Of a stretch of 64,000 nucleotides of DNA, positions 11,941 through 63,354 are shown in pieces (positions within the stretch are counted from its first letter, which is position 1; every line of letters begins with the position of its first letter). Source of the stretch: Saxidomus purpurata (Eukaryota > Mollusca > Bivalvia > Venerida > Veneridae); contig JAFMSR010000003.1 in assembly GCA_022818135.1 (NCBI GenBank), positions 17,964,351 to 18,028,350 of the forward strand, in the 5' to 3' direction. The notes under the pieces are model-generated. The model was given only the letters and a program-made list of their open reading frames with translations, had not been told where the DNA came from and searched no databases. The translations under genes were made by a program, and so were the position numbers.

Positions 11941-13850
11941 TTTTCCTCAGTGAGTACTGTTCTATAAGCACTACTCACAGTGAGTGTTGTTCAGTGAGCA
12001 TTTCTCATGGTGAGTGTTGTTCAATGAGCATTTCTCACAGAGAATGTTGTTCAATGATCACTACTGATTGTGAGCACTACTCACGGTGAGTGTTGTTCAG
12101 TGAGCATTGTTCAGTGAGGACTTCTGACAGTGAGTGTCGTTCATTGAGCATTGTTCAATGAACACTTCTCACAGTGAGTGTTGTTCAGTGAGCATTTTTC
12201 ATGGTGAGTGTTGTTCAATAAGCACTTCTCACAGTGAGTGTTGTTCAGTGAGCACTACTCACAGTGAGTGTTGTTCAGTGAGCACTACTCACAGTGAGTG
12301 TTGTTCAGTGAGCACTTCTCACAGTGAGTGTTGTTCAGTGAGCACTTCTCACAGTGAGAGTTGTTCAGTGAGCACTACTCACAGTGAGTGTTGTTCATTG
12401 AGCACTACTCACAGTGAGTGTTGTTCAGTGAGCACTTCTCACAGTGAGTGTTGTTCAGTGAGCACTACTCACAGTGAGTGTTGTTCAGTGAGCACTTCTC
12501 ACAGTGAGTGTTGTTCAGTGAGCACTACTCACAGTGAGTGTTGTTCAGTGAGCACTACTCACAGTGAGTGTTGTTCAGTGAGCACTTCTCACAGTGAGTG
12601 TTGTTCAGTGAGCACTTCTCACAGTGAGTGCTGTTCAGTAAGCACTTCTCACAGTGAGTGTTGTTCAGTGAGTGTTGTTCAGTGAGCACTACTCATAGTG
12701 AGTGTTGTTCAGTGAGCACTACTCACAGTGAGTGTTGTTCAGTGAGCACAACTCACAGTGAGTGTTGTTCAGTGAGCACTTCTCACAGTGAGTGTTGTTC
12801 AGTAAGCACTTCTCATAGTGAGTGTTGTTCAGTGAGCACTACTCACAGCGAGTGGTGTTCAGTGAACACTACTCACAGTGAGTGTCGTTCAGTGAGCACT
12901 ACTCACAGTGAGTGCTGTTCAGTGAGCACTAATCACAGTGAGTGTTGTTCAGTGAACACTACACTGTCAGCACTTCTCACGGTGAGTGTTGTTCAGTGAG
13001 CACTACTCACAGTGAGTGTTGTTCAGTGAGCACAAGTAACTGTGAGCACTACTCACGGTGAGTGTTGTTCAGTAAGCATTGTTCGGTGAGCACTTCTCAC
13101 AGTGAGTTTTGTTCAGTGAGCACTTCTCAAGGTGAGTGTTGTTCAGTGAGCACTTCTCACGGTGAGTGTTGTTCAGGGAGCCCTACTCACAGTGAGTACT
13201 GTTCAGTGAGCACTACTGATGGTGAGTACTACTCACGTTGATTACTCTTCAGTGGGCACGTCTCACAATGAGTGCTTTTCAGTCAGCACTACAGCACTAC
13301 TGATGGGGAGCATTGTTCAGTGAGCACTTCCCACGGCGAGTACTGTCCTGTGAGCACTACTTATGGTGAACACTCTTCAGTCAGCACTACTCACAGTGAA
13401 TACCGTTCAGTAAACATTACTGACGGTGTTGTTCAGTGAGCACTTCTCATGGTGAGCATTGTTCAGTGAGCATATCTCATGGTGAGCATTGTTCAGTAAG
13501 CTACTTACAGTGATCACTACTCACGTAGAGAACAGTTCAGTGAGCACTACTCACGGTGACCACTGTTCAGTGAGCGCTACTCACAGTGAGCATTGCACAG
13601 TGAGCACTATACACGTAGAGAACACTGTTTAGTGAGCACAACTCGCGGTAAGTACAGTTCAATAGTTCAGTGAGCACTACTTACATTGAAATTGCTGAGT
13701 TCGTACTTCTCACAGTGAACATTGCTCAGTGAGCACTTCTCACCTTGAGTATTGTTCAGTGGACACTGTTCAAAGATCACTACTCATGGTGAGTTAATAA
13801 TCAGTTAGAACTTCTCCCAGGTAACATTAGTCAGTGAGCACTTTTGAGAT
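11941..13850. repeat. 30-bp minisatellite, about 60 units
   Basis: The core unit is 'gtgttgttcagtgagcac' plus 't(a/t)ctcacagtga', 30 bp long. It is nearly perfect between 12160 and 12960 and decays on both sides. Each unit contains the near-palindrome ACTCACAGTGAGT. Because 30 is divisible by three, frames stay open and yield ORFs of ten-residue repeats (ECCSVST(S/T)HS) at 12134-12685 and 12658-12999. There is no signal peptide, splice site or flanking coding sequence, so I read the ORFs as a by-product of the repeat. Confidence 0.92.
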
Positions 13851-16497: not shown

Positions 16498-16837
16498 ATG
16501 CATCTTAAACTTATTTGTTTCATTTGCTGCATTCCAGTCAGTTTTGGATTTCTGATCCTACCAAACTCTGGCAATCCATTGTCAAGCTTGTATGGCAACA
16601 ATTCTTTGGTTAGTGCGTATATGAATGCAATAAAAGCAGGAACGGACTTTTACCAAAACCTTCTGACAGGAGGAACGAGTGGCAGTCTTCCTGGACTGGG
16701 GTCCCTTTCAAACTTACCGGGAATGGGACTACTTTCGGGCGGAAGCAGTCTGCCAGGAATGGGATCATTAACAGGCGGCAGCAGTCTACCTGGGACAGGA
16801 ACATTATCAGGCGCCACAGGATCTAGTTCTAAACTAG
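16498..16837 (+). CDS. PHB depolymerase gene 1, exon 1
   Basis: Encodes the signal peptide, a short unique region and repeats of the form GSLPGMG / SGGSSLPG. The donor is ACTAG|GTATTT, phase 1. This exon is four times longer than exon 1 of gene 2. Confidence 0.82.
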
Positions 16838-19800
16838 GTATTTTGCAGTCGGATTTCAACTCAGTGTAACATTTATCCTATAGTTCATTTTCTGATTAGT
16901 TAACAATTTGTGTTTAGATACTAACATACTATTAAATATATTTATATTTATAGAAAGATAGTAATCGTTTCTGGTCAACTTAGAAATTGACACGTATTAA
17001 CATCTATGATAAAAAAATAACCATGGCAAGTAATGACCACGGCCAATAATGATCATGACAGGTAATGACCAATACAGGCAATGGTCATGTCAGGCAATGG
17101 CTATAAAAGACAACGTAAAATGGAAGGACATGGCTTTTACATGCAATGACCATGACAGGAAATGACGACAGACAATGACTATACCAGGTAATGAGAATGA
17201 TAGGCCATGCCTTTACCAGGTAATGACCATGGTAGGCCATTACTATACCAGGTAATGACCATGGTAGGCTATAACTATACCAGGTTATGACCATGGTAGG
17301 CAATAACTATACTAGGTAATGACCATGGTAGGCCAAAACTCCATGGCAGACCATAACTGTACCAGGTAATGACCATGGTAGACCATAACTATACCAGGTA
17401 ATGACCATAGTAGGCCATAATTATACCAGGTAATGACCATGAAAGGCCATAACCATACCAGGTAATGACCATGGTAGGCCATATGGTAATGACTATACCA
17501 GGTAATGACCAAGACAGATAATGATTTCGACAATGACTCTGTTAATTATACAACGACGATACTTCCAAGGTTCCTGCATTATCTTAACCAGTTACATATT
17601 TAATTTATGAACAGAGCAATACAACGTGGATCGATCTCAAATATCTGTATCTGGTATTTCTGCTGGCGGGGCCATGGCATCACAGGTACACGTCATCTTC
17701 TCCAAGGACATCATGGGTGTAGGCCTTATAGCTGGACGTGAGTGTACTTTCTTCATATTTTCGATTTACCTAAACGGTAAATCTCATGATATTTGTTTCC
17801 AAAAACATCCCTTCTGTCCTTAAAGCATAATGGCTAGCATGGTTGTCTTTCAAAGAAAAGGGTTTAGGGTCCCATCCTCAGCCCGAACGCTGTATGCGCT
17901 GGTTCCTGTGGGTCATTTGATTTTAAAATTTAAGTAACGTGGTATTTGCAATTCACTATCCGGTGATTCTAGTTGATCTAGTGTCTCAGGAAACATGCAC
18001 ATATAACTTGTCATGGTATAATAAGATACTTGTTTTTGTTCAAGGTGGACTCTGTTAGTAAAATATAGTCAGTTGTCGCTCATTGAAGCATATGTTTTAA
18101 GTTTATTTCTAATTGGTCAATGTTGACTTGATTTGATTAGTAGTATAATCGCACGACGCTTACACATATACTGATATTGTCTATATACCGTATACTGCAG
18201 TTCCTTACGGATGTTCCGGTGGAAACATGATGACCGCACTGACCACCTGTATGAAAATGCCAAACAGTGTAAGCGCATCGAGCTTGGAGGCATTGGCCGG
18301 TACCGAGGCTAGTCGTGGAGATATAGACGCTGTAGCCAACATGGCCAATGACAAGGTTTACATATTGAACGGAAGGGCGGATACAACAGTAAATCCTGGT
18401 AATATCTTCCCTGTAGAGATTGTTTGAAACTCTGTATCACTCATCATGTAACGTAAAGAAACGAAGGAGTTCAGTATATAAAGGTCTACACGCTACAACA
18501 TTTACATAAACCAGTTTGACTTAACCTATGCATGTCAAATTACATTATATATTTCCAGGAATTGGACCAGTCATAGAAACCTTCTACGGACACTTTGTCA
18601 CGGATCCCATCAATATTAAGACAAATTTTGACATAAACGCACAGCATTGCATGGTATAAAATATCAAACATATACTTGTATTTAATCACTGGCATGTTTA
18701 ATATCTCAACAATATGCAAATGCATACATCCTCTTTTCTTATTCATATATAGTTCTGCTTATTTTCTTGGGTTTGCAACAAGGCATTTCGATCCCAACAT
18801 ATTCTGCCCTCGTGAAAATTGCTCTAACATTTCTGTCCCTTTGGTCGACATTTCAACACTAGATTACTTAATATACCAACACAATTTATTTACAAAGGAA
18901 TTCAAATTTCAGATTTTTGTGGATGATACCTATTATAAATACTTAATCCTGATAGGCCGATGGCGATTTAGACCTGCGCGGATTTCAAGACGCCATTTCT
19001 GTTATATTTCGCATATTTACTGTTACTCACATTACATGTACTTTTTTTCGTCCGAGGTCAATACCACTTTTTTACAAGTCCGCAAATCTATATATTGCCC
19101 TTAACATTAGTCTATTAATTGTATAAATTATGAACAATTGCACTTATTGAGTTTTGGCACTCGGTAATATAGAAATCCGGAAAGACGGTCAATATGTATT
19201 TATAATACATGTACATGTATAATTTTTATATCCTATGAACCTATGGTAGCCGACAGACAACTACGGTGTTGCATGCTCGATGTCAGCAGCGGGGTCACAC
19301 TATATCAGCAACTGTAACTTCTCTGCAGCCTATCATTTACTGAATCACATTTATGGCGGCCACCTTAAAGTAAGTATTTTTGTTCTATGCATTACGGAGT
19401 TTTCCTTGCTTTATGTCTGTGATGATCTTTACTTGTTTCTATTTTCGAAAGCGTTACCATTGTGCACTTTGATATTGAAGTTAGACCCGTAGTTTGTGCC
19501 TTGTCCGTTGCCTTTCCTTACATGGCGGACAATTAATCTAGTACATTGCGTATATACTTGTTGGAGTGTCATGTTTCTGTTCTCCGGATATGAATGTTGT
19601 GCTTTATAATACGTATTTGCATTTCGGTGGGCTCTACTGCTAAAATGATTAAGTAGGTATCTATTAAGCAAACACTGAAGAAGCAATGCAACTAACTTCC
19701 TCTATTCCCGTTATATTATTCGAAATGATTATCGCATTTTCTCATGTTTTATGCAGATGCCAACGCCAGAGCAGCATGCCAATGGAAAGGTTACAATTTT

Positions 19801-21744
19801 ACATAATTCTGGATTTCTTCATATAAAACTCACTAGCAATTATAAAGAATGTATCCATGAGAACATCTTCCTAAATGACTTAAATTTTATTGGAATACCA
19901 AACATAATTGCTGTCGGTGTCCTTTGATACATGTGCATTGTACATGACGACATACAAATGTTTAGTCTGCGTTTCTTTCTTTCTTAGGTATAATTATGTT
20001 TTAAAAAGCTATTCGTAACCATGCATCTGCAAAATTAAAAATATCTATAGGCTTGTATATGTAATATTCATCACTGTAAAATTTTACGTAAGTTTTCATT
20101 TTACATAAGCTGCTGACATTCAGCCAATCAGAATTCTTCCCAAGTTCCAGCTCAGGCAGTATGGACACTACAGGTTACGTTTATATTCCATCTGGTTGCC
20201 TGGATAAATCTACAGGTGCGTGACCTTTTTGATGGACTTGATTTACATGCTTTTTTACCTATTGCACTCATTTTCATAATTGAATCCAAAAGGAAACCTC
20301 TTGGAACAATACAGAAAACTACAGGTACTTCACAGATATCTATAAAATGGTTTTGTTTCTCTATTCGGGTGACTATAGCAAAATAGTGGCATAGTCTTTT
20401 CTAAAACTATTATTTTCAGAATGCAAATTGCATGTTGCTTTCCATGGCTGCTTACAAGGACGGTAAGTTGTATTTTAACTGCAAAGTTCGCCTTTAAATA
20501 CTAATAAGTTCTTAATGTGCAATATTCCATTAAGAAGGTTGTCTTCCTTCGAAACCAGTTGTCAACTTCTTGGCTAAAGTGAACAGAAACTATAGCATAA
20601 CTTGTATCACTATTGAACTCATTTACCAAAGATAATTGCCCTTTATATGTCTTTTTAAAGAATATGTCCGGTCACAAAATATGTGTATCAAAGTATTATG
20701 CATACAATTTGATATCTGCTATAACAAATCTGATGCTACTATTTTGAAAGAGATACAGTTGGCGACGCCTACGTTCGACACAGCGGTTATAATGAGGTCG
20801 GAGAACTTAACAATATAATCATCCTGTACCCACAAGCTGTCAAATCCACCATGAATCCAATGAACCCGAACGGATGCTGGGACTGGTGGGGATATACCGG
20901 AACTTCATATGGTAGGATAGATAGTTTCTGTCATTGATAAGCCTACACAATATGTGTGTTTTTGACTCCCAACCAACCTCAACATTTTACTGCCGAGCTC
21001 AAAAGATGTTTTATGACCATTCTACCTTAGCGCATATATTTTTGCGTAACATTAATTATTCTAACGCAATACCGATGTGACGTCGTTTCTGATTGGTGAC
21101 GTCGTTTAAATTTGCGACTATCAAATAACGTATATATAGTCGCAAACTTCAAACGGCGTTTTAATTATCGCATTTAGACACATTGTGCGTTAGAAAAGGG
21201 ATAACTATTTAGTGATTTTGATATTTGCGACCGTATATACGGTTTTAATGGTCGCAAACAGTTTTAACAGCCTCCGGCTAACGCCGTCGCCGTTAAAAAT
21301 ATTTGCAACCATTAAAAACCGTATATACAGTCGCAAATATCAAAATTACAAAACAGTTATTCCTATAATGTATACCATTTAAAAATTCGACGCACAACAC
21401 GGTTTACTTGTATATTAAAACACTGTTTTGTATAAACTGTAAGGAAGTTATTGAAATTTATTGAATTGCTCTTGCTTAATAATATTTTAGTATCATCACG
21501 AAAGGGATTTGTCGTTGTTTCGCGTTGTCGTGTTGGCGACCATGCAGACACGAAATTGCAGAGATTAAGTACCATACAAACCAACACCAGATTATATACT
21601 ACATGACAATACAATATCAGTCAAAAACGAAGTATTCTTTACGTAATATAATTTAAATATGAATGCTATATTTAATTTACAGAGAAGAAGAGTGGATTCC
21701 AGCCTATGGCTATAAAGAGAATGATTGACAGAGTAACTGGATAA
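16498..21744 (+). CDS. Secreted PHB depolymerase-like enzyme, gene 1 (10 exons)
   Basis: Hand-built model: join(16498..16837, 17615..17737, 18201..18398, 18559..18653, 19250..19369, 19757..19789, 20110..20215, 20420..20462, 20751..20911, 21683..21744), 426 aa, in frame throughout, all GT-AG. Seen: an N-terminal signal peptide (LICFICCIPVSFG), a low-complexity Gly/Ser/Leu/Pro segment (about residues 65-112), the lipase box GISAGG with Ser129, NGRADTTVNPG with Asp215, and QHCMPTDNYG with His250. Further on are YISNCNFSAA, MDTTGYVYIPSGC, LHVAFHGCLQ, IIILYPQA and GCWDWWGYTG. Block order and spacing match the single-domain extracellular PHB depolymerases of fungi and bacteria (Penicillium funiculosum type), which hydrolyse poly-3-hydroxybutyrate with a Ser-Asp-His triad. 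Inferred: the protein is secreted and probably digests bacterial storage polyester. Substrate is not proven; another polyester or ester is possible. The ATG at 16498 is the first in frame and gives the signal peptide. Confidence 0.88.
16838..17614. repeat. Intron 1 of gene 1, with a 32-bp minisatellite
   Basis: From about 17030 to 17530 the intron is made of units such as 'ggtaatgaccatggtaggcc' plus 'ataactatacca' (32 bp), clean between 17216 and 17480 and diverged outside. Minus-strand ORFs here follow the repeat. Confidence 0.85.
17615..17737 (+). CDS. PHB depolymerase gene 1, exon 2 (catalytic Ser)
   Basis: After 'ttatgaacag' it encodes YNVDRSQISVSGISAGGAM and ends GLIAG before GTGAGT. 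It is 123 bp, the same length as in gene 2. It contains the G-x-S-x-G nucleophile elbow. Confidence 0.92.
18201..18398 (+). CDS. PHB depolymerase gene 1, exon 3 (catalytic Asp)
   Basis: Acceptor 'tatactgcag', donor CCTG|GTAATA. It is 198 bp, identical in length to gene 2. It encodes PYGCSGGN (family block after the nucleophile) and VYILNGRADTTVNP with the triad aspartate. Confidence 0.92.
18559..18653 (+). CDS. PHB depolymerase gene 1, exon 4 (catalytic His)
   Basis: Acceptor 'atatatttccag', donor ATG|GTATAA, 95 bp as in gene 2. It encodes GPVIETFYGHFV and ends INAQHCM, with the triad histidine three residues before the splice. Confidence 0.9.
19250..19369 (+). CDS. PHB depolymerase gene 1, exon 5
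   Basis: 120 bp, phase 0 at both ends. It encodes PTDNYGVACSMS and HYISNCNFSAAYHLLNHIYG. The Cys of SNCN is conserved in the family, where it takes part in a disulphide. Confidence 0.9.
19757..19789 (+). CDS. PHB depolymerase gene 1, exon 6 (33-bp microexon)
   Basis: Encodes MPTPEQHANGK between 'ttttatgcag' and GTTACA. Gene 2 has a matching 33-bp exon (MPTEHRQQNGK), which supports this very small exon. Confidence 0.85.
20110..20215 (+). CDS. PHB depolymerase gene 1, exon 7
   Basis: Encodes LLTFSQSEFF and SMDTTGYVYIPSGCLDKST, the start of the C-terminal half in the family. Acceptor 'ttttacataag', donor ACAG|GTGCGT, phase 1. Confidence 0.88.
20420..20462 (+). CDS. PHB depolymerase gene 1, exon 8
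   Basis: 43 bp encoding ECKLHVAFHGCLQG, the conserved 'LHVALHGC' block of the family. Acceptor 'attattttcag', donor ACG|GTAAGT, phase 2. Confidence 0.9.
20751..20911 (+). CDS. PHB depolymerase gene 1, exon 9
   Basis: Encodes GDAYVRHSGYNEVGELNN, IIILYPQA and NGCWDWWGYTG, the last being a hallmark near the C terminus. The acceptor 'ttttgaaag' was chosen over two nearby AGs because only it keeps the frame and aligns with gene 2. Confidence 0.88.
20912..21682. repeat. Intron 9 of gene 1, with compound palindromes
   Basis: A 165-bp hairpin at 21199-21363 has arms of about 70 bp ('ttttgatatttgcgaccgta' against 'tacagtcgcaaatatcaaaa'). A second inverted repeat at 21057-21197 ends in 'ttctaacgcaat' and its complement. 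Both look like MITE-type insertions. Confidence 0.8.
21683..21744 (+). CDS. PHB depolymerase gene 1, exon 10 (terminal)
   Basis: Encodes EKKSGFQPMAIKRMIDRVTG and stop TAA. It is 62 bp, the same length as in gene 2. Confidence 0.9.
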
Positions 21745-21753
21745 TCAAGTACA

Positions 21754-21759
21754 AATAAA
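21754..21759 (+). promoter_or_regulatory. Polyadenylation signal of gene 1
   Basis: AATAAA lies 9 bp after the stop codon. Confidence 0.6.
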
Positions 21760-24096
21760 TCATATTGTGAAATTACAGATACCGAAAAAGTAAAACAAAA
21801 TAAACTCGCAAATGGGACCGTGTTGTTTTCATTGCATGGTATGAATGACTACATCTTAGACCCCGTGGGATGAGTTCTCCTAGGTATTTACTAGAAAGTC
21901 TTCCTCTGTTGATACTTTATTACTCATTCTTTTCAAAGAAAATGTGCCAGCCGACTCTGGCTACAGTGTACACATCTACTTATCATCTTATACAACTATT
22001 ATTTTTTTGAGTACAAATATTTTGAAACCAGGATATATACAATCAAGGCCTTCTGTCACAAAGTTTGGTAATTTGTTCAGATACGTAAATTTACGACAAT
22101 TTAACAGTTCTTTTCCTTTATATATTTCTCATCTTGCTTGACAATATTCTTTTGTAATTGCTTCGCAATTTCTCAAATCGTTTGACTCGGGCTGACTTTT
22201 TAAGTTATTTTACCCTCCGAAATACCCATATGCTCAAAACACAAGATTAAGTACTTGGAAATACGTACGAATTAATGCTTATTAACAGACTGAATAAAAG
22301 TTAAACTGGGTTATCTCGTTCTGACTAGTATATAGGTAAGTTAAAAAAAAAGTTTGATAGAAACAAAATTGTTCAATTAATGATACTGAGTGTTCTACGT
22401 ATACAAAATGTCTCTTAAAATTATGATGGGCACTTTGAATGGTAATATCACTTATGAAATGGGTACGACATTTTGTTCATAGCCAGCTCTGATGCTTTCT
22501 GGACTATGATAAGACGCACGGTCTATACATGTGTACAGTATTTAGGATCATGAGTTGTATGCAATTTCGAGGATCGTCTGCCTTTTACGGCGGATCTCTC
22601 ATGTTGTGGGGAAAAAGAGTATGCATTACAATATCTATGAATGGTGTTTGCAATTTAAAACATTATCCAAAGTATTGTGCAGCAGTTAAAACATGTTGTT
22701 AACCCATTTTCACAAACTTAAATTCAACTTCTGAAAATAAAATGGTATTTGTGTAAATGCAACTATTCCTTTCCGAACATTGGACAAAAGAGGTGTTTTA
22801 GAAATACACTTAAAACAGAAAAGTGAAATGAACTACATTTCCATGGAAATGTACATTTTAAAGACCTATATTTAATAAAAATTCTCTATTCAGTGATGTG
22901 AAGGAAATAGAGCATTTTGAATAAAAATATGCTCTTATATACAAAGAAATATGTCTTACCTACAAAATTGACCGTCGTTTGTTTGGGAAACATTTCATAT
23001 CTATAACGTTACTTTTTTAAAGTCCTAGGATCTCTAAATTTACTGATATAGTAACATAGATTTATTGGTAGTATAATGATAGGTCATGTTATATTCACTC
23101 TAAAACAATGTTGACACATGCATTTCTTTTGTATTCAAGTTGTTTCTTTAAGAAAAAGAGTTGCCAGAAAGCCTTTCTTATTTTTTTTGTAATATCATTG
23201 AAAAAAATACTGTGCTATTATTCTAATATGTATTTACTCACTTAAAAAACAAAGTTAAGAATGTTTTTGATACAAGTAAAGGTCATTTTTGTCAGTAAGA
23301 CATCTTTCTTGATAAAAATGAGAGCTACTTATAAAAATGTAATCCGGGGACTTTAAATCGAAAGTTCATGCAGTTGTAACGGTGACCAGGCTAATAACCT
23401 TTTTAACTGAAAAACTTAACCTCAAACGCTGTAACCCATTTTAAACAACTGAAATTTAGTTATCATGAAGAACTTGCGGATAATGATTTATATAAATGCA
23501 TTTTGTAGAGAAGTTTGTACATTTTAAGGCCATGGGCAAGGGCGATGACAAATGTTCTTGTATGTACCGGTGCACGAGAGAGTTAAAGGAACATACCGGT
23601 ACCATACATCTAGCAGATTATATTCTCGAAACATAGATAATGTGTTCAATGAACATAAAATGATATATAAATGTAATTTTAAAGAACAACATATATCGTA
23701 AAATGCTCCTATTACCACAATAAATCAATAAAGAGGCCTTCTGTAATAAATCGCATCCACACATTAATTGTACAACAACTCTACATAGGTTATTGAATCG
23801 TCTACGGTACTGCAACATTTCTTAAAACGCTGATTTTATAGATAATGACAAGAATGCATAGCTGAAACTTTTGGGTAAGTTATAATACTTCAAAATGTTC
23901 CATTATTTATGTTTTGAGGTTATTTAGTTGACATCAGTTATAGGGTATGTCCCTTAACATCGAAATTTGCAGCCGAGTTATTGTTGTGGCGCTTTTAGAA
24001 CATAATTGGCCTATATTAGGAGACGAGTAAACTGTCAAGTCATGATACGGTTGTGCTGGAGATAAGACACGTATTTTAATAGTATAAGCAATCATA
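21760..24096. other. Intergenic and upstream region of depolymerase gene 2
   Basis: From about 22630 to 24015 the sequence is similar, with gaps, to 52030-52980. For example, 'tggcgcttttagaa' and 'atgatttatataaatgcatt' occur in both. The region immediately before the ATG (24020-24096) matches 61660-61740. A block at 23580-23974 is absent from the other copy and is probably an insertion here. The promoter must be in this stretch, but no core motif is convincing. Confidence 0.7.
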
Positions 24097-24181
24097 ATGC
24101 AGACATTAAAAATCTGCCTTTTATTTTTCTGCACGAATATTGCCGACGCCTTTCTTTTTTTTTCAAGTGGGAACAAGCTTG
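24097..24181 (+). CDS. PHB depolymerase gene 2, exon 1 (signal peptide)
   Basis: 28 codons plus one base, MQTLKICLLFFCTNIADAFL onward, donor CTTG|GTAAGT, phase 1. A near-identical exon exists at 61741-61825. Confidence 0.85.
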
Positions 24182-27100
24182 GTAAGTAGATGTTCATTTT
24201 CAAATAAGTATATTATTTTCGTTTGTTGTTTATAATTTAACGGCCATTTTGACTAAATGGCCTCATGTCTCAGGCAACTGGTCTTTAGCTAAATGACATC
24301 TTGAGTGAATATTGCTTCATTACCTTATACTCTACCTTGACAATTAATCATTTTATAAACGTTACATTCATTTGGTATTATTTGTCTTTTTAGTATTTAC
24401 TGTTTGTAGGCTCTACGACCTATATGGTGTCAAAGCAGCCATATTACATTTGATATCTTCAGGTGGCTGAAAATGACAATATTTAGCTTTTTTCTCTTAA
24501 AAGCTGATAAATATATTTTTAACATATACCTGACAGAAAGACAAATAGTTGCAGAGAAAGGTTGACAAGATTTTATACATGAACTATAATACTTTGCTGC
24601 TATTTCTTAAGAAAGACTGCGGAGTAAGTTTATAATTTTATATACATTTATGATATACATATATTAGCCTATAATTCAGACATTATCAAATTAATGTACA
24701 ATATTGTACTGCGTATGAATGACTGGTATGAATATTAAGCTGTGTTAAGGTCCCACGATTCCGTATGAAGGCGATTATTGATAATATTCACCCTCCTAAA
24801 TTGTACGATTCTTAATCTAGTAGATGCTGCGGTTCATAGCTGGTACTGTCAATGCATCAAAATTCTTGCATGTGATATTTCGCGGATACTAAATAAAAAC
24901 TAATTTTATGGGTACCTTGATTCGTGCACTACTTCAATAGAAAAAAAGTATTTTCCGATGGTTTTTCGTTGGAATCTTAAATTCTTAGATCGACACACCC
25001 AAGAAATCCATGAAAATTAGTGACCCACGTCAATTAATTGTTTAACTTTTAAAATATAAATGTTGCTTTCGCTGTATTGTAATGCAATTGTCCCTGTTGC
25101 AGAAAGCTACAATGTGGACCACTCTCAGATCTCTGTTTCTGGAATATCTTCTGGCGCTGCCATGACAACACAGATCCACGTGATATATTCAAAACACATT
25201 ATGGGCGTTGGAATGATTGCAGGACGTAAGATATCGCTCAGATTAAAATAATGGTCGGCGAATGAATTTAATAGCGATTTGCACACTTTGCTGACCTGAG
25301 TATACAGATTTTAAAAAATATATCCGTTATAAAAATGCGTATTCGGATGTACATTTTGACAGCCATTGGATCGAATGGTCTTTGCGAAGGGACAATGAAA
25401 ACACTAAGTAAACATATCACTTTGCCACTGCTTCCGCCGTTGTGTTTCCATTTTAAAAAGGAAATTAAATTTAATATGACAAAATTGGCGTTTTTTAGTG
25501 AAACAGTTTGTTCCTTAATTATGACTTTTTGTAATACATTATCACAGGATAATTTCTTATAACGAATGTATTACAGCGATTTGTTTTTATTGTTCAGCGC
25601 CGTTTGCGTGTTCCGCTGGTAATGCAGCGTTAGCAGTGAGCATTTGTATGACGACACCTTCCGCTATATCCGCTACTGCTTTAGAATTGACTACAGAGGC
25701 TGGGGCTAAAGTCGGTAACATCGATGCAACATCGAATATGGCAAATGACAAAATCTACATTTTTAACGGAATATCTGATTCTGTCGTCAATCAAGGCATG
25801 TATGTTTTCTTATGTGCCTTTTCATTTCATGGATGCTCACATATTTCAATATGGTATAGAGTTGATATTAGAATTTACGTCTAAGATCAAAGACAGTTAA
25901 TTAACTAATGATATAGCTTATAGTGCCGACCGACCCTTGAACCATTAGTCAGGCTGTCAAGAATTGCCATGATATAAAAAAGATATTTTACATATACGGG
26001 TAATTTACGCCAGTTCTTTGCAGCAGATAATCTGTTTTACACATAATTCAATTATAATCCATTAAGATTTTTAATGAAACATTTATTCCTTCGCATATTC
26101 AAGGCATTGGACGTGTGAGTCAAGCTTTCTACGAACATTTTGTTCAAGATCGTAACAACGTTAAAACAGTCTTTGACGTAAACGCCGAACATTGCATGGT
26201 AAGACTAAGGAATCAGTGGTATTTATGAACTACATTGATGGTTGATTAAACTATGAATAACAATACGATTATATTGGAATAAGTTAGTTTGAAAAAAAAA
26301 AAACCAACACTTAAGTTATGTAATGTAAAGTAAACTTATGACTTGTGACTTAACTTTTTAATTATGTAAGGACATTTTAAAGAAAATTAACAAAATTTTC
26401 AAATTCCTAGTCAAAAGAGAATTTAGCTATTTTCACATACATTCAACATAAACTGGTTTACAAATTAATGTATTTTAGTCAAGACACTGGTAACATTCTT
26501 AATTTGAACAAACCAGGGCTAAACGTCTTTATTAAAATCATGACTGTCATTTTGAGGGGTATTTTTTCACTTTTATAAGACAATATATATTGTTGATATT
26601 TTATTCATTTTCCCTATCAAAGTACACTGAAAGACTTTAATAACGCAACACTTTTATATGTTAATATTTTTTGGAGCAAAACAAAAAACCTATTTTCAGC
26701 ATTCTCATTTACTTCCCACACATAACACCTACTATCGGAATGCATTTTAAATGAAATTCACTCAACCTTGAAAATAGTGAGTAGTAATAAGGCAGAAACC
26801 ACGTTCTTTACGTGCGCATTACGGGTAAGTAATTTTTAAAAATTAAATCGAAACAAGTTGGTTCAGTAGGTCCCTGTTGATTAAAAACTCAAAGAAAAAA
26901 TATTTTTAGGAAGCGTTTTCAGCATTCAAAATGCCTCGCCTTTCAGAAGATAATAGGTAACAAGCCATTTGCATGTTACGCACTGGATTATCACAGACTT
27001 TCGGCAGAGGTGGATGCAAATTTCAGTATGAAAATGTGAGTCCATATGTCGCCAACATCACATTTCAGCATCTTCACCAAAAGGTCATGGACTGGACGGC

Positions 27101-30100
27101 CATTTAGTCCGATATGGAATCAATCGAGAATGTATGGGATGAGCTTAAAGGATGTGTACCTAAAGTCGTCAGTCACCCCCTGCCAACGTCACTGATATAC
27201 GTCAGGGCTTGACTGGGGAATGGGCAAACTATTCCACAACATTATGACTGCTTCTTTAATCCAGTCAATGCGAAGAAGATGCATGGCCTCCATTCACGCT
27301 AACATTGGCTATACCAACTATTTAATATTTGTGATTTTAGACTTGGAGGGCGATACATTTTGAAGCGATGAAATTGGTGTTTATCATGGTTGGATTTTTG
27401 TTAAATTTGGTCAAAACAGTAATTCTAGATTAAATTTCTATGCTAAATAAGTTTTCCTTTAATATCTTGTAATAGAACATTTTTACAGAGGTTTTTCAAG
27501 TTGTTGCGTTATTGAAGTCTTTGGGTGTAGGAGTGCATAACAGTTTTCAACAATAACACCTATATACTAATGTCAGGTTTTGCTTTTGCTTTCAGTTTAA
27601 GATAGAGTCTAATGTTTCGTAGCCAAATATTATTACCTGTAGTTTTAATCGGTTTTGGTTAAGAGCTTATTTTTTTGTTTGCAGCCAACTGATAACTATG
27701 GCGGAGTTTGTGATCAATCAGCTAAGCAAACACACTATCTAAGTAACTGCAACTACTCAGCCGCGTTTCACTTGTTGAATCACATTTATGGAGGTCACTT
27801 GCAGGTAAGGTTTGGTAAAGATCATCGACTTCTTACCACTATAAATTTATTATTCTCTAGTTGTTCCATTGCTTTGACTGAGAAAGCTAAAATATGGTAT
27901 AAATTTCATAACTTCAACAAAAGACAATGTTTTAATTATCGCATGCTTAGCAATATTAATATTTTTACAAAAAGCTCATTGATAAATCGTATTTACAGAT
28001 AATTTTGACATAGATTTGCAACTCCTAAACTAGAATTTTATGATCCAGATGCCGACAGAACACAGACAGCAGAATGGAAAGGTATAAAGACAATATAAAT
28101 AACATGCGAGAGTCTTTGAAGAGAACAAAAAAGGAGTAAAATACTTACTTTGAAAAGTTTTGTTATAATTTAGATTGGCATTTAATGAACTAATTATGTA
28201 AATTGATATTGGAGCAAAAATATAAGAAAACAGCATATCAGAAACCGAACACAGTTTTTTAATGGATTACTATTGTTGAAATGATTAATTTGTCGTAACA
28301 TCAGCTTTCCATGTGTGCCATTACACAATTATTTCTGTCATTTTATTTTGAAGTTGATGAAATTTAGCCAGGATGACTTTTTCTACTTTTCAACACCTGG
28401 AATGTACAGCATGGACACAGTAGGTTATATCTATGTACCATCAGGTTGTCTGGACAAATCGAACAGTAAGTCAAATAAATTATGTAATAAAAGTTGTATC
28501 CACAGGTCAACAGGGTTTATCTGCGTACCACCTTGTTGTTTTGACAAATTGAACAGTACGAAGAATAAATCATTTGAAAACATATATACGTAAGTGTTTG
28601 GTGCCTCAAAGATTGTCATATTCACCATAAAAAGAGACACAAGAACAATGAAACACCAAAAGTTTGCAAAATTAAATTATCAACATCATGTGCATGACGA
28701 GTTTATAATCGTCAAGGCTTTTGTGATATTTCTTCGGCGAAACTTAAAAGAAAGACATGAAATCTAACTTAAGAGACAATAATACCAACAGTTAAAACTG
28801 GAACTAGAACATGCAGCAGATAATTGTGTGCTTGGACATACATGTATAGTTATTTACTGAACTAACAGCATTAAAGATTGTGTGATTTTTTACTTACTTT
28901 TGTGATAACTTTCAGAATGCAAACTGCACGTTGCTTTCCATGGGTGCGAAATGGGACAGTAAGTGAAATAATGGTTTCAAGACCCACAGTGATGGGTTTC
29001 TTAGTTAGACTAGTTATTGGTTAGAGATCTAGATTTTATTGAGTAAATGAAAAAGGAAAAGAGGAAAAAATGTATTCAAATAGTTAATATAGAATTGACG
29101 GAAATGACAATTTGAAGTAAAAAAAAAACAAAAACATAAAAGCATATTATTTCACGTCAAGTTTCGAATGCATATTGATTTGTTTGTAGTTTTTATCAAG
29201 AAAAGTCTTGATCTTCACTGAATCAACAATTGTCTAATGATGCGGAATGATCAAACGTATCGCCAACTTTACAATGGATGTCGTCAAAAATAAAAAACAA
29301 CTACATGTAATATAATGGACATTGTCTGACCGTCTCAAATGAAAACATTTAGATAATGTATGCAGGCATGTTTAAACTAGCGTGTTTTGTTTTTGTTTTA
29401 AAGGAGTAAGATCGGGGATGCTTTTGTGAGGCATGGCGGGTACAACGAAGTCGGTGAACTAAACAACATAATCATACTTTATCCTCAGGCAAAAGCATCT
29501 ACCGTACCGTTAAACATTGCTGGTTGCTGGGACTGGTGGGGCTATACCGGGGCGCTTTTTGGTGAGTAAATTTTAATAGAAATGCCTTTGACTTGCAACT
29601 GTGTCATTTTAAAAATGATTAAAAGAAATGTTTCCAACCTTGCAGGCATAATCTCCGACGGCGAGCCTTCAACTAGATATAGTTTTACTGGAAAACAACA
29701 TATTTGAGTATTTATGTCGCGGTCCGCTTAGTGGTTCGGCGTAAGGTTTATTTTGTCTTCTCATCTGGATAGATATCTGTTCGGATGTCACAAACTTGTT
29801 AACGTAACGTTTGTTTTCATAAACAGCTAGGTTGATTTTAATGAAACCTGATAAAGGATAAAAGTGATAAGCACCGAGCATATTTGTTCAAATTGTCACG
29901 AAGAACTAAAAAAATATTGAAAAAGTTACAAGATCAGATTTTCATAGACAGTGCTAGTTTTTACTGGACGAATGTTTTGAAAAGATGATCTATGCTGACC
30001 CATGTTTGGAATAACACTCGAGGGCCAAGGTCACAGCTGGAGAAATAAAACTTCCTTTATATTGGCTTCTTGTCTTTTCGGATTCAGTACACGAGCAATT

Positions 30101-30321
30101 TTATATAAATTCCCATGCAATACTATATTGGAATGAGCTAGGAGAAGAAGACATATTCGGCTCCTAAAAAGTTGAAGTGCACTACTGACATATAAATTAC
30201 TGTTGATATAAAACGGTATAACATATAATTAATTCTCTGTTATTTTGTTTGCAATACAGCAACGAACAGTGGTTTCCAACCAACAGCGATCAAGAGGATG
30301 ATTGACAGAGTTGCCGGATAA
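24097..30321 (+). CDS. Secreted PHB depolymerase-like enzyme, gene 2 (10 exons)
   Basis: Hand-built model: join(24097..24181, 25103..25225, 25598..25795, 26104..26198, 27685..27804, 28049..28081, 28354..28465, 28916..28958, 29404..29561, 30260..30321), 342 aa, no internal stop. Seen: signal peptide (LKICLLFFCTNIADA), then directly the catalytic core: GISSGAAM with Ser44, NGISDSVVNQG with Asp130, EHCMPTDNYGG with His165, YLSNCNYSAA, MDTVGYIYVPSGC, LHVAFHGC, IIILYPQA and GCWDWWGYTG. All ten exons match gene 1 in phase, and seven have identical length. The Gly/Ser-rich N-terminal linker of gene 1 is missing, so exon 1 is only 85 bp. Inferred: same fold and reaction as gene 1; changes around the nucleophile (AGGAM to SGAAM) and the aspartate (ADTTV to SDSVV) may shift substrate. 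Intron 3 starts with GC instead of GT. Confidence 0.88.
25103..25225 (+). CDS. PHB depolymerase gene 2, exon 2 (catalytic Ser)
   Basis: Acceptor 'tccctgttgcag', donor GGAC|GTAAGA, 123 bp. Encodes YNVDHSQISVSGISSGAAM and GVGMIAG. Confidence 0.92.
25598..25795 (+). CDS. PHB depolymerase gene 2, exon 3 (catalytic Asp)
   Basis: 198 bp encoding PFACSAGNAALAVSICM and KIYIFNGISDSVVNQ. The donor is CAAG|GCATGT, a GC donor. Using the next GT four bases later would break the frame into exon 4. Confidence 0.88.
26104..26198 (+). CDS. PHB depolymerase gene 2, exon 4 (catalytic His)
   Basis: 95 bp encoding IGRVSQAFYEHFVQD and VNAEHCM, donor ATG|GTAAGA. Confidence 0.9.
26625..27527 (+). mobile_element. 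Decayed Tc1/mariner element in intron 4 of gene 2
   Basis: Terminal inverted repeats begin CACTGAAAGACTTTAATAAC on the left and, reverse-complemented, CACCCAAAGACTTCAATAAC on the right. The dinucleotide TA lies just outside both ends (26623-26624 and 27528-27529). Inside, broken frames spell a Tc1-type transposase: MPRLSEDN at the start, and near the end DWTAI*SDMESIENVWDELK, matching the family's 'WPAxSPDLNPIExxWD' block. Stops and deletions show it is inactive. Confidence 0.88.
27685..27804 (+). CDS. PHB depolymerase gene 2, exon 5
   Basis: 120 bp encoding PTDNYGGVCDQSAKQ and YLSNCNYSAAFHLLNHIYGG. Acceptor 'ttttgtttgcag', donor CAG|GTAAGG. Confidence 0.92.
28049..28081 (+). CDS. PHB depolymerase gene 2, exon 6 (33-bp microexon)
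   Basis: Encodes MPTEHRQQNGK between 'tatgatccag' and GTATAA, same size and phase as in gene 1. Confidence 0.87.
28354..28465 (+). CDS. PHB depolymerase gene 2, exon 7
   Basis: 112 bp, two codons longer than in gene 1. Encodes LMKFSQDDFFYF and MDTVGYIYVPSGCLDKSN. Donor AACA|GTAAGT. Confidence 0.9.
28503..28575 (+). pseudogene. Partial duplicate of exon 7 within intron 7
   Basis: It encodes TGFICVPPCCFDKLN, a diverged copy of VGYIYVPSGCLDKSN, followed by a copy of the donor (AACA|GTACGA) and 'aataaat', as after the true exon. It lies 84 bp downstream in the same reading frame and the intervening sequence has no stop. Spliced as a separate exon, it would be out of phase. Confidence 0.75.
28916..28958 (+). 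CDS. PHB depolymerase gene 2, exon 8
   Basis: 43 bp encoding KCKLHVAFHGCEMG, acceptor 'ataactttcag', donor GACA|GTAAGT, phase 2. Confidence 0.9.
29404..29561 (+). CDS. PHB depolymerase gene 2, exon 9
   Basis: Encodes KIGDAFVRHGGYNEVGELNN, IIILYPQA and GCWDWWGYTGALF. Acceptor 'gttttaaag', donor TTTG|GTGAGT. Confidence 0.91.
30260..30321 (+). CDS. PHB depolymerase gene 2, exon 10 (terminal)
   Basis: Encodes ATNSGFQPTAIKRMIDRVAG and stop TAA, acceptor 'gcaatacag'. Confidence 0.91.
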
Positions 30322-30365: not shown

Positions 30366-30371
30366 AATAAA
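30366..30371 (+). promoter_or_regulatory. Polyadenylation signal of gene 2
   Basis: AATAAA lies 44 bp after the stop codon. Confidence 0.6.
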
Positions 30372-35130: not shown

Positions 35131-37393
35131 CGACAACGACATCTTCATTCCAATAACCAGTTTTTTTCTTTAAAAAATCTAGTTATCACGTTAGCCCAAA
35201 CACTGTAATGCCTTCCCAAACGATAATTAAAATTAAATAAAAGATACATGGAACATACTTTCAAGACAAATGCAAAACAAAGTAGCACCGTTTGAACACA
35301 GACTTACGAAGGGAAGAATCAGCTGTCCGAGTCAATGGACAAGATCACGTTGCGATCTGATATTCGGAAATATATAACAATCACACTTGCCGACAAGAAT
35401 TTCAGTATTGTTTTAGAACCTCCATTTTCTATGATTTTGATATATTTATGTTTTCTCAAAGGTTGACAAGTGGTATCACTCTGAATAGAAAACTCAACAA
35501 CTTGTAGAATTTAATAACGAGCATTTATTTTTAAACACCAAAATCAATATAAATGTTATAATTTGAAGTATAGATTTCTATATCTGTATGACAAAGACCA
35601 CCACAATTCTCCTAGATTATGGTCTTCATATCATGTTTTGTGATATAATTCATAGGAGAAACTGTTTAGTATTTCGTGCTTCAGACAATCATTAAACTTC
35701 TCATCTTGTTTTAAACTGGCATTTAAATGGCGAACAAATGTCACTCGCCTTTGGTCAGTATTTCCGAGGCTTCTCCTTAAGAAATTAAGGATTTTGTATT
35801 TTTGGCAAATTAAAACTTCAGTGTTGTCTAAGACTCATGTAACTTTTCCATTATTCAGCTTTTTTCAATATTTTGTAAAATGATTTGTCATACTTTGACC
35901 TCTGAGTTTAACAGACAGAAATGTCTCCTTTAGAGTAGTTATTTTTAGTAATTAAGTCTTATAATAGAGTAAGAAGTATTACTTGCATTTTGAGTATTTA
36001 AAGCATGATCTTAATTCACGATTTTGATAAGCAGGCTCAGCTTTCTACTTGGAAATATCACACGTGACATTGGAAATTTGCACAAATTGTCGATTTTGTA
36101 GAAGATAAAACTTTTAAGTGACTTGTTTTATATATACAACCCATACATTTTCTTGAAGTTTATGGTTTAAACTATAGCTGCTGAAGTTTTCAAACTTCAA
36201 TTATGCTTTTAACTCTCAAAAAGGCCATGAAGTAAAGACCCACTTTCAGCGATTTGTCAATATATATAAATTTTTACAAAATATTCAAGACATATTATTA
36301 CTAACAATTGTAAAATATCAACATATAAATTGCAAAACATGAAAATATTTTTATTTGCAGCTAAAGTTTAATGTTTAAGTGTTTGATAATGACCACTGAG
36401 TTTTATTTGCTACAAAATAATAAACGTGCTGTCATGGGTAAAATTTCAGGATACAGCAGTGTTGCATATCTCCCTTTTCTAAGACTCTGTTTTAGATATA
36501 GAATCTAAGTACACAATGATCTGTGATTCGAAAAAACAAAAAAAACTTTAGCTGCTGATTTCGGAATAAAAACTTACTGACACCATATTTAAAATGCTGC
36601 TATCATAGAAGCATATGAAACTAGATTCAGTCCGGCAGTAGAACTTAAAAATTACTGTAACATCTGGAAGATGCTTTACCTGGGTGGTGTAAAGATGCGA
36701 GATCACTAAATAAAACATTTGATGAAAATGACACACATATATCTTTACATACATGTGTATAAATATACATGTGTATAAATATGTATTACTAAATAAATCG
36801 TTTACAGAACTTGTTCTATATTATCAGTTGCGCACCTCTTTAATCAAGCACGCTAAATCTACTTTCGGTTTCGGCCGATGCCTGAAGTCGATTTGGATAT
36901 TATATTATAATGTTATTTGGATGTATCGATATAAATTCTACGGTCACCTGAATATCGTTACAAGCGAAGCTTACTGTATATTGTTTTTGCATGCATGTAT
37001 GGAGGTCAATTTGCAGTACAGTACAACTTAATTTTAAATCGATTTTGTTTTCGAAAAATTAGATGAACTGTTAGTAGTATAAGTTCATACGGTGTGTGTA
37101 CAGTTTAATGTTAACAACAATTTAGCTTGTTATCAATTCAACTTTGGTTTATTAACAAAATTAGTTTCTACTTTTGAGTTTATTTCATATAAGTGTTGAT
37201 TACAATCGGACACGTAACAATAGGTTGTTTAAGGTAAAAAAACGCCCAATCGGAACAGGGAAGTAAATTATTACCCTTTTTGTACGACAAATTATAAAGA
37301 TAAGAGAACATGTGAAGGTAAATGGATCTAGAACAATTTGAGGTCATATGAAACACGTTTCTATTTTACGAAAATAAAATAATAAAGTCAGCA
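35131..37393. other. Intergenic region upstream of the B-box gene
   Basis: AT-rich, no supported ORF, no clear repeat structure. The promoter of the 37394 gene should lie at its right end. Confidence 0.5.
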
Positions 37394-38230
37394 ATGGAGC
37401 ACGACGCCGACACAGGGTCAGAGGAAATTCCTGAAATGTTCTGTGAACTGTGTAAAAAGAAAGGTAAAACTCGAACTGCAGACGGATTTTGTGTGGACTG
37501 TGTTCGGTATTTATGTTCTAAATGTCTGGCGTATCATACAGAATTTCTACCTGATCATAGCTACCAGGATAAGAAAAACATGCCCCAAGATGTGTGTTTG
37601 CAGAAGTGTCCGGATCATGCAGATGAAATAATCAAGTTCTACTGCACTAGTTGTAACGCATTCTTCTGTTGCCTGTGTAAGAAGAAGGATCACGACGAGT
37701 GTGAAGATGTTAATCATCTACCACAGCTTGTTTGTCAGCTTGAAAAAGGAAAAGAATTTCAAGAATTTAAGAGCGAAATGGAGAGTCTCGATGTTGAAAT
37801 AAGTAACATGGAATCAATTACAGAACGTGAAAAAGACTCGATAGAAGAAATGTCTAGTAAAGCGTTGTCAAAAATAGATACATCAAGACAGCAATTTATT
37901 GAGAGGTTAGACTCCAAACTTGATGAAAAAAAGAAAGAGGTTCAAGCCATAAAGGATAAAGATAAGAATATGATCGAAGAGCGAGGTTCAAAACTGTCCG
38001 TCATGAAAGAACAACTTAGTAAGGTGAAGTCGAACGTAGAGCAAATGCAAAGAGAAAATAAGAGATGTCAGTTGTTTATGGCGATGAAAGCTGCACAAAG
38101 CAAACAAACGAAAGTCTTTAAGGATTTGCGTCAGTTAAAGGAACATAGTATAAATAAATATGACTTTGTGGAAGCAAAAGAATGGAACGAGGATCTTGAA
38201 AACATTTTGCGGCTTTACAAGATTAGAAAG
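37394..38230 (+). CDS. Fusion gene exon 1: B-boxes and coiled coil
   Basis: 279 codons from the ATG in 'cagcaatggagc', ending KIRK before the donor AAAG|GTATAC, phase 0. The frame stays open past the donor only because it enters CT and 21-bp repeats; the protein character changes abruptly there, which supports splicing. If unspliced, it would be a stand-alone 413-residue ORF. Confidence 0.88.
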
Positions 38231-38313
38231 GTATACTTCCCACAAAATATTCATATAGGACAAAAAATCCACCAATTCGACATCTCTCTCTCTCTCTCTC
38301 CCCCCCTCTCTCT

Positions 38314-38351
<38 letters not shown>

Positions 38352-52029: not shown

Positions 52030-52980
52030 AATATTACAGTATCTATAAACATTATTTGTAATCTAAACTATTATCCAAACTAGTACGCAACAGTAAGAAC
52101 ATGTCAGCCCATTTTCGCAAACTTAAATTCAGTAAAGGCAACAGTCCTTTTCCGAACATTTGGAAAGGAAATACACGTAAAACAGAAAAGTGATATGAAA
52201 TATTTTTCCATGAAAATTTACGTTTTAAAAAGCTATATTTAATAAATGATGTGAAGGAAAGAGTGACGTTTGTGTTATACGGAGAGTAGCTCTCGCGTAT
52301 ATGTATTTCAGTACTGGCCAAATTAGTGACCAGATCTACAGCTAAGGACATACTGTAACAATCAATTGAACATTTATCATCAAACTAAATATATATGGAG
52401 GAAAATGTGTTGAGTTTAATTAGCATATTTTCTAGTTTAAACAAATGTTAACATTTAGTGGGAATATCATAATTATTATTTTAGTTGAGGAAAATTTTAT
52501 TACTGGTTGAATGCATATCTTCTGGTAAAACTTAAAAAGAGATCATTATTCTGCTATGTCTGCATAGTATTAGTGCATAGGATGCAAGAAAAGTAGGTAC
52601 TGCATTCTGCACCATTTAAAGTCACAGGAGCACTTTGGATGAAAATGAGCTCTTATATTACCAAGAAATATATTTTACCTGCAAATTTGGCCATTGTTTG
52701 TTAGTGAAACATTTCATATTCATAACATTACTTTGTAAATCGAAAGCACATGCAGTTGTAACAGTTACCAGGTTATTAACAGGTTAACAAGTTAGCATGA
52801 AACGCTGTAACCTATAATTGAAATTTCAGTTATCATGGAGGACTTATGGACAATGATTTATATAAATGCATTTTGTAGATCTGTTTGTATATTTTAAGGT
52901 CATAGTGGAAAGGGCGATGGTAAATACTCTTGTATATACAGGTGCACGAGTTATTGTTGTAGCGCTTTTAGAATACTCAT
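52030..52980 (+). other. Upstream region of a third depolymerase copy (duplicate of gene 2 5' flank)
   Basis: Shared, in order, with 22630-24015: 'cattttcgcaaacttaaatt', 'taaaacagaaaagtga', 'cagttgtaac', 'aatgatttatataaatgcat', 'gcgatg..aaat.ctcttgta' and 'gagttattgttgtagcgctt'. Similarity stops at 'cttttagaa' (about 52972). The continuation is found at 61660. The 395-bp block 23580-23974 is missing here. Confidence 0.8.
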
Positions 52981-61659: not shown

Positions 61660-61740
61660 TTAGCAGATGAGTAAACTGTCAAGTCATGATACAGTTGTGC
61701 TGGAGATAAGACACGTATCTTAATAATATAAACAATCATA

Positions 61741-61825
61741 ATGGAAACATTCAAAATCTGCCTTTTATTTTTCTGCACGAATGTTGCCGACGCCTTTCTT
61801 TTGTTTTCAAGTGGGAACAAGCTTG
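61741..61825 (+). CDS. Signal-peptide exon of a third PHB depolymerase copy
   Basis: 28 codons plus one base, METFKICLLFFCTNVADAFL and then SSGNKL, donor CTTG|GTAAGT, phase 1. It has the same length, phase and nearly the same sequence as exon 1 of gene 2, including 65-80 bp before the ATG and about 40 bp of intron. No exon 2 (YNVD..SQISVSG) is found in the remaining 2.2 kb, so the gene either continues beyond the window or is an orphan exon. Its more distant 5' flank lies at 52030-52980, cut off by the LINE-bearing insertion. Confidence 0.75.
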
Positions 61826-61849
61826 GTAAGTAGATGTTCATTTTCAAAT

Positions 61850-63354
61850 AAGTATATATAAAATTCAGACAGAAATAAAACTTATGTTTTCTGAACGTTC
61901 AATGTCTGTAGTATCCATAAACACAAAGTACCCAAAAGTTCCCGCCTGGGAAACTCTACAATCCAAGATGGGCGCCAAGAAGGGGGCCAAGATGGCCGCC
62001 GAACTTTTAAAAAATACCCTATCACATTCAAGTTCTTACAAGTATCGCATATTTTATTAATGTTGGTAACTATCACTACTATATCAAACTTTATGGGCAC
62101 ATGTCTTGTTTTGATATTGTTTCCATTTCTGTTAAATTATCAGGAATTTGTACTAAAAATACCTATTTTTTTACTCTTTTGCAAAATTGTTATATTTTGT
62201 AAATATTTATTGCAAAAATTCTAAGAAAGAATATCATTTGTTTAACCAATTCTGTATGTGTAAATTTTGATACGTTTCGGATAGTTCTGAAGCTACTTAA
62301 ACAACAGCTAGTGACTTGTACAAGAAGGTATACTGCGCAAGGTGGGTGGGGAAATGTTACAGGCAGTTCAATAATTCAAATGTATCTAATCCTAACACAT
62401 AACTTTTAATCGTATTGTCCCTAAACGTGTGTATAATTAATACTAAACTATTGAATTATGATTTACTTTATATATGGAAAGTAGGAAATTTCTAATGTCA
62501 ATGCATAGGCTGTCTAGGCCATCGTAAATATCCAGAGTGGTTCTCTATGTACAAACAACCATTTCAAGATGTTAATAGAACTTCAGAAAATAATTATTGT
62601 AAAATCGACTTAATATAGTTTGATTGCTTTTAGTTTGCACTGGATTGTGCATAAGTCTTAGATATGGAACTGAATAATGAAAAGAGTGACTGCCCTTTGT
62701 TACAAAGAGCTCGACCCGTTATGTATGCAAATGTGCCTGAAATTTTCATTTCTAATAATTGTATGGTGAAAAAATATTATTAGACACCTTAGAACATCAA
62801 AAACGTCGACAATGTACAATGTGACGTCATGCGCAAAAAACGTCAAGGAAATAGACAAAATCGTCATTTCAACCGAAAAAATTTGAAGGTATTTCTCTGC
62901 GTCGCTGACCACGTCATTTTCATCAGTTATGCTTTCAATTAAAAAAACAAACAACAAAAACAGATAACATCTGCAGTAAGTTGCTTGTAGTGTCACTCTA
63001 AAACACGGGAAATGATAGAATGCGTATCATATGAACAGCCATTTTTACGTCGAATCGGCACGTACAAAGCATATTGTTTAGATATTCTAAGTGTCTTATA
63101 TCATCATTATATTGACAGCAGTAACATTTGGTCTTCAGTCTTTCTCCATCGTAACAAAATCTCAACACTTAATATCAGCTTCTTGTTGGAAAACTATTTG
63201 AGTTTTAATTTTATCTCAGACTTATTTAATTCTATTATCGGTTTGTATTCATGTCAAAAAACATTTTGTTAACTATTCGTTCTTCACGTACATGTAAACA
63301 AATCTGCTAGACGTAGATGTTTTTCTTATCGCAAGCCATTTTACTATTTACTCC
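61850..63354. other. Intergenic or long first intron of the third copy
   Basis: A GC-richer patch at 61935-62000 ('gggcgccaagaagggggcca') stands out; the rest is AT-rich. ORFs at 62700-62996 and 63012-63272 have no recognisable domain. Confidence 0.45.

Follow-up and report, generated by a model that had tools for sequence, protein, structure and literature searches.

The genome of the clam Saxidomus purpurata carries two adjacent genes, here named A and B, whose predicted products belong to the type 2 extracellular depolymerases of short-chain-length polyhydroxyalkanoates (PHAs), the family that includes poly(3-hydroxybutyrate) (PHB) depolymerases. They lie in a stretch of 64,000 nucleotides (assembly GCA_022818135.1, contig JAFMSR010000003.1, positions 17,964,351 to 18,028,350 of the forward strand), called 'the window' below, in which all coordinates are counted. 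We consider it probable that the two genes are functional paralogues belonging to the animal, whose products are serine esterases secreted to digest PHB, and that they descend from an old animal gene by tandem duplication in the clam lineage. Within this explanation, export of the proteins, their action on PHB, where they are expressed, their role in feeding and the time of duplication are predictions.

Both genes were modelled from stop-to-stop reading frames and tblastn; they lie on the + strand, 2352 bases apart. Gene A (16498-21744) has 10 exons and encodes 426 amino acids. Its exon 1 (16498..16837) encodes a signal-like N-terminus and a linker rich in Gly, Ser and Leu (residues 1-113), exon 2 (17615..17737) the lipase box GISAG with Ser129, exon 3 (18201..18398) Asp215 and exon 4 (18559..18653) His250. 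There follow exon 5 (19250..19369, 40 residues), exon 6 (19757..19789), exon 7 (20110..20215), exon 8 (20420..20462), with the oxyanion-hole block HVAFHGC and Cys349, exon 9 (20751..20911), with the block NGCWDWWGY, and exon 10 (21683..21744), which includes the stop codon. Gene B (24097-30321) also has 10 exons and encodes 342 amino acids. The corresponding segments are exon 1 (24097..24181, signal-like N-terminus), exon 2 (25103..25225, lipase box GISSG, Ser44), exon 3 (25598..25795, Asp130), exon 4 (26104..26198, His165), exon 5 (27685..27804), exon 6 (28049..28081), exon 7 (28354..28465), exon 8 (28916..28958, HVAFHGC, Cys266), exon 9 (29404..29561, block AGCWDWWGY) and exon 10 (30260..30321, with the stop codon). 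The exons of each gene join into a single open frame. Introns have GT-AG borders in 17 cases out of 18, the GC-AG exception being intron 3 of B, which follows the exon carrying Asp130. A preliminary description of this DNA had placed two tandem genes of ten exons each at 16498..30321, and this interval runs exactly from the ATG of A to the end of the stop codon of B. An AATAAA signal stands shortly after the stop in both genes (21754-21759 in A, 30366-30371 in B). Two repeats were also seen here: a 32-base minisatellite (17178-17483) in intron 1 of A, and a dispersed repeat between the two genes (22625-23578), whose second copy lies at 52033-52950, with pieces 69 to 82% identical.

The nine intron places match between A and B, with phases 1, 1, 1, 0, 0, 0, 1, 2, 1 in both, and the proteins are 65% identical across 320 aligned positions (E 9e-162). 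Over 313 codons, 75, 69 and 180 differences were counted at codon positions 1, 2 and 3, respectively; this concentration at third positions argues for selection on the protein sequence. The exon borders of A are backed independently by the hard clam Mercenaria mercenaria, whose isoform X2 (P0025) lacks 40 residues of protein P0003 that match exon 5 of A. In Mactra (P0002), six additional residues were found at the exon 8/9 junction.

Membership of the family was assessed with curated profiles. For NF050059, the type 2 extracellular short-chain-length PHA depolymerase model, A scored 349 bits (model positions 1-305) and B 330.4 bits (2-305), both across the whole model and above its curated 280-bit cut-off. 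The type 1 extracellular model, NF050058, was rejected: its matches fell into two pieces, with 94.7 bits for A and 87.7 for B, and its cut-off is 150 bits. Alignment with the Penicillium funiculosum enzyme, whose triad residues 39, 121 and 155 are named in a passage of PMC5445757, yields the triad S129/D215/H250 in A and S44/D130/H165 in B. This agrees with the preliminary description, which had recognised PHB depolymerases with intact Ser, Asp and His and had suggested a blastp or HMMER search. The lipase boxes follow the rule given in part of PMC2666664, namely GxSxG with a hydrophobic residue preceding the Ser, and the oxyanion-hole block lies C-terminal to the triad, as defined in the same part of that source: its HGC ends at residue 349 in A and 266 in B, beyond the His. 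The fold of the Penicillium structure 2D80 was found in the Mercenaria counterpart of A by Foldseek (the VIA-align list re-examined Foldseek's chains only). On reading by eye, the N-termini of A and B are hydrophobic and resemble signal peptides.

Relatives are widely spread among animals. A protein database search, for which B was the query, gave 2203 matches, and 54 of the 120 listed bear animal names: bivalves, gastropods, a chiton, springtails, Daphnia, Capitella, sea urchins, starfish, acorn worms, amphioxus, frogs and a newt. Many of them are already named poly(3-hydroxybutyrate) depolymerase or depolymerase-like. Such predictions, mentioned for some marine invertebrates in the preliminary description, extend from molluscs to amphibians. 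Over all protein searches, 120 matches were listed out of 2203, 2856 and 2817, and an animal group missing from these rows is no evidence of absence. When the EukProt protein P0105 was the query, the matches listed included Salpingoeca rosetta, Phypoly transcripts (which we take to be from Physarum), Pelomyxa, Anaeramoeba and 'Eukaryota sp. TZLM1-RC'. Among the gathered rows, A is closest to Mercenaria P0003 (84% over 316 tree columns), while B is 90% identical to the partial Mercenaria protein P0006 over 64% of its length. The contig of origin is 100,968,995 bases long for each of these Mercenaria records, and the two counterparts presumably lie on one chromosome. The N-terminal linker of A recurs in P0003 and P0005, and therefore marks the A branch. 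It had been suggested that the tandem arrangement and its function may be undescribed. As to the genes, relatives are public, many of them named, and Mercenaria has both counterparts; as to function, among the papers listed by literature searches on animal PHB or PHA depolymerases, preprints not being covered, none dealt with the animal enzymes. A preprint reportedly treats PHA depolymerases in animals, gutless worms among them. We conclude that A and B are further members of a known and widespread family whose functional question is little studied.

A phylogeny including bacteria, fungi and metazoans, also proposed at the outset, placed the animals in one group, nearest to protists, and the fungi with bacteria. 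Rows were hand-picked from 358 database proteins, 80 prokaryote loci, A, B and the 2D80 chain; the partial P0006 was left out of every tree. A 114-row tree was made first. Dropping 36 rows, among them the long-branched L006, L015, L050 and P0103, and adding 31 gave a 109-row tree, and the careful tree of 88 rows corresponds to this set less 21 rows, for speed. A quick tree of 173 rows holds 90 bacterial rows, with all 80 prokaryote loci in. For transcript rows lacking an organism name, 'protist' refers to the EukProt source (any eukaryote being possible) and tree position, and for proteins with an FN3 domain lacking such a name, 'bacteria' refers to contig and domain make-up. The trees are unrooted, bacteria being assumed to lie outside. 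In the 88-row tree, animals and animal-like sequences (37 rows) form one group (support 100/99), and so do 20 protist rows (19 labelled as such, 1 without a name; 100/98). Animals are again one group in the 173-row tree (99). Animals plus protists are separated from bacteria plus fungi with support 99/88 in the 88-row, 98 in the 109-row and 94 in the 173-row tree; in the last, this group encloses six other sequences, namely five unnamed proteins and L015. The fungi are nested with five bacterial-labelled rows (100/100, 88-row tree), all five being unnamed or derived from metagenome-assembled genomes (MAGs).

The animal family is thus old, forms one group, is kin to protist enzymes and is not fungal in origin. 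That the animal gene came from fungi might be expected from the best solved relative, which is fungal, and the preliminary description had allowed for such a source; the chance of this is nevertheless practically nil, given the place of fungi within bacterial-labelled enzymes and two approximately unbiased (AU) tests. Constraining animals with fungi cost 199.67 log-likelihood units (p-AU 2.6e-69), and constraining all eukaryotes, fungi included, cost 206.94 (p-AU 7.3e-38); the groups tested were chosen after inspection of the quick 114- and 109-row trees, so that the p-values, here and below, are not blind. Within the eukaryotes, the choanoflagellate Salpingoeca rosetta clusters with amoebozoans and other protists, away from animals. 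Joining its group (three rows, S. rosetta being the sole named one) to the animals was worse by 47.67 log-likelihood units (p-AU 0.026), so that a simple line of descent in which choanoflagellates are the neighbours of animals is mildly disfavoured. The result would be unexpected if the gene had simply been inherited by choanoflagellates and animals, and speaks for a transfer of its own from bacteria to an early animal, independent of the protist genes, with introns gained afterwards. The separate protist group speaks for it as well, as do the prokaryote loci: all 80 that were retained have a family-matching open frame of more than 200 codons. We regard such a transfer as rather unlikely, since the three trees mentioned set animals plus protists apart from bacteria and fungi. 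A broader proposal is that PHB depolymerase is an ancient digestive enzyme of bacteria-eating eukaryotes, common to protists and animals, retained where animals ingest bacteria, as filter feeders, deposit feeders and tadpoles do, and lost in the rest, with the fungal enzyme acquired separately from bacteria; it would also be the animal's own activity that sets 3-hydroxybutyrate free when germ-free brine shrimp are given PHB. We put this forward tentatively, at somewhat less than an even chance, because the protists, choanoflagellates included, stand apart from the animals. The route may have been descent from a common ancestor or two or more early transfers.

Whether A and B are what they seem has to be weighed in the same way. 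Microbial contamination, for which no supporting point was found, can be set aside almost entirely, as it was in the preliminary description: each gene has nine introns, the nearest proteins are the bivalve ones given above, and a non-LTR (long terminal repeat) retroelement and satellites share the window. The GC-AG border in B and transposon remains in introns might suggest that one of the genes is decaying into a pseudogene, or that the exons form a chance chain. We hold this to be very improbable in view of the complete frames, the third-position bias of the changes, and the gap-free junctions in alignments of B with P0001 and of A with P0003, both full-length. It is less far-fetched, though still improbable, that A and B encode genuine secreted enzymes whose main substrate is a different ester, such as a host or dietary lipid or another polyester, PHB being incidental. 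Alpha/beta hydrolases are versatile, PHB activity is predicted from sequence, and the oxyanion-hole region reads HGC(E/K)M in B and several mollusc relatives versus HGCLQ in A and 2D80. Several points weigh against the explanation that we favour, of PHB-digesting enzymes of old animal descent. The good support for the identification as PHB depolymerases comes from sequence and fold as distinct from an assay; alpha/beta hydrolases readily shift substrates, and another ester could be the true one. The Pfam family PF10503 (Esterase_PHB) gives 17.4 bits for A and 14.2 for B, under its gathering cut-off of 23 bits, and membership of it was rejected; some close relatives bear this label. The tree departs from the species in places, amphioxus being placed among molluscs (97/84, 88-row tree), and the branches that unite animals and protists against bacteria and fungi are short (99/88, same tree). 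The long-branched bacterial row L015 falls beside animals in the 114-row tree (support 88) and among protists in the 173-row tree; it was excluded from the 109- and 88-row trees. Finally, the family is seen in Daphnia, and its presence in Artemia itself would be an extrapolation. As to L015, it is a locus from a Burkholderiales MAG, and its placement may reflect contamination, artefact or transfer.

If A and B are PHB depolymerases, digestion of bacterial polymer would be their most sensible role. The protein would be exported to the digestive lumen or to digestive vacuoles, where a hydrophobic crevice of the kind described for the fungal enzyme in part of PMC5445757 would take up a single PHB chain; the granules would be those of bacteria that were eaten or live in symbiosis. 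The serine would attack the ester bond while backbone amides hold the oxyanion, and the soluble 3-hydroxybutyrate oligomers or monomers freed would be used as food. The gene is an old one among animals (a single group spanning molluscs, arthropods, an annelid, ambulacrarians and vertebrates), within a wider eukaryotic group that includes protists, and would have been duplicated in tandem in the clam lineage. Passages of PMC5940922 report that PHB feeding protects farmed aquatic animals from bacterial disease and that germ-free brine shrimp fed PHB contain 3-hydroxybutyrate; as its source they leave abiotic breakdown and/or enzymes of the larva itself, and they regard abiotic breakdown in the rearing water as unlikely to account for its level. 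These passages name no animal enzyme that releases it, and an animal PHB depolymerase family makes the question directly testable. If the explanation is true, a bacterial storage polyester joins the foods digested by animals' own enzymes. That the tree sets the animal enzyme apart from its fungal model also matters when such genes are called horizontal transfers.

The window holds the start of a third copy on the + strand (61660..61857), not picked up in the preliminary description, which is 94.4% identical to 24016-24213; by analogy with B, its exon 1 would be 61741-61825. Compared with B, there are 6 changes in 81 upstream bases and 5 in 84 bases of exon 1, where the frame is kept, and the donor is intact, the 33 bases spanning it being identical. 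No later exon was detected between this exon and the end of the window, some 2170 bases farther on; intron 1 of B measures 921 bases. The copy may be either a gene with a longer first intron or an isolated fragment. No further family copy was found in the 64-kb window, the remaining tblastn matches outside A and B having E values of at least 0.46. Two of the introns contain mobile elements, as had been noticed before: intron 4 of B a decayed DNA transposon (26623..27529, strand not assigned), with 28-nt inverted repeats at 26623-26650 and 27502-27529, which we take to be Tc1-like from a motif, and intron 9 of A a fold-back element (21197-21364) with 50-nt arms, 90% complementary.

Elsewhere in the window, an intact-looking non-LTR retroelement has a first open reading frame (ORF1) at 55064-56224 and a second, ORF2, at 56228-59647, with endonuclease and reverse transcriptase (RVT_1, E 6.6e-33). 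Its ends are flanked by direct repeats of 606 bases (54281-54886 and 59838-60443), 100% identical, which would be unusually long if they are a target-site duplication. A long array of 30-base units (11948-13843), one frame of which is open for 183 codons, is probably a satellite and not a gene. Another satellite array (46914-49560) has a unit of about 159 bases, with AGCGGCCT repeats interspersed. A TRIM-like reading frame (37352-38635) matches the B-box zinc finger with 19.7 bits, for a Pfam cut-off of 24.1. ARAGORN found no tRNA in the window.

Among known systems, the closest is that of Mercenaria mercenaria. LOC123553387 (P0003) corresponds to A (76.9% across 415 positions) and shares its Gly/Ser-rich N-terminal linker, and LOC123551697 (P0006, partial) corresponds to B; both are annotated merely as 'uncharacterized'. 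The Penicillium funiculosum PHB depolymerase (PDB 2D80/2D81) is likewise a single-domain type 2 enzyme, with the triad, the oxyanion Cys and eight cysteines as in A and B, to which it is 39.8% and 37.3% identical, respectively, and its fold is also that of the Mercenaria counterpart of A. It differs in belonging to a fungal branch inside a bacterial-labelled group, which is not the source of the animal genes. The group nearest to the animal proteins is that of the protist PHB depolymerases (Salpingoeca rosetta P0245, Phypoly P0279 and P0300, Pelomyxa P0280); P0245, with 373.9 bits, is above the NF050059 cut-off, as A and B are, but these proteins form a group separate from the animals, with its own support (100/98, 88-row tree). 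Type 2 dPHA-SCL depolymerases with an FN3 domain, such as P0112, taken as bacterial, share the catalytic domain (41% identity to B). In these enzymes the FN3 domain sits C-terminal to the catalytic domain, whereas A and B end at the catalytic domain, and A carries its linker at the N-terminus instead.

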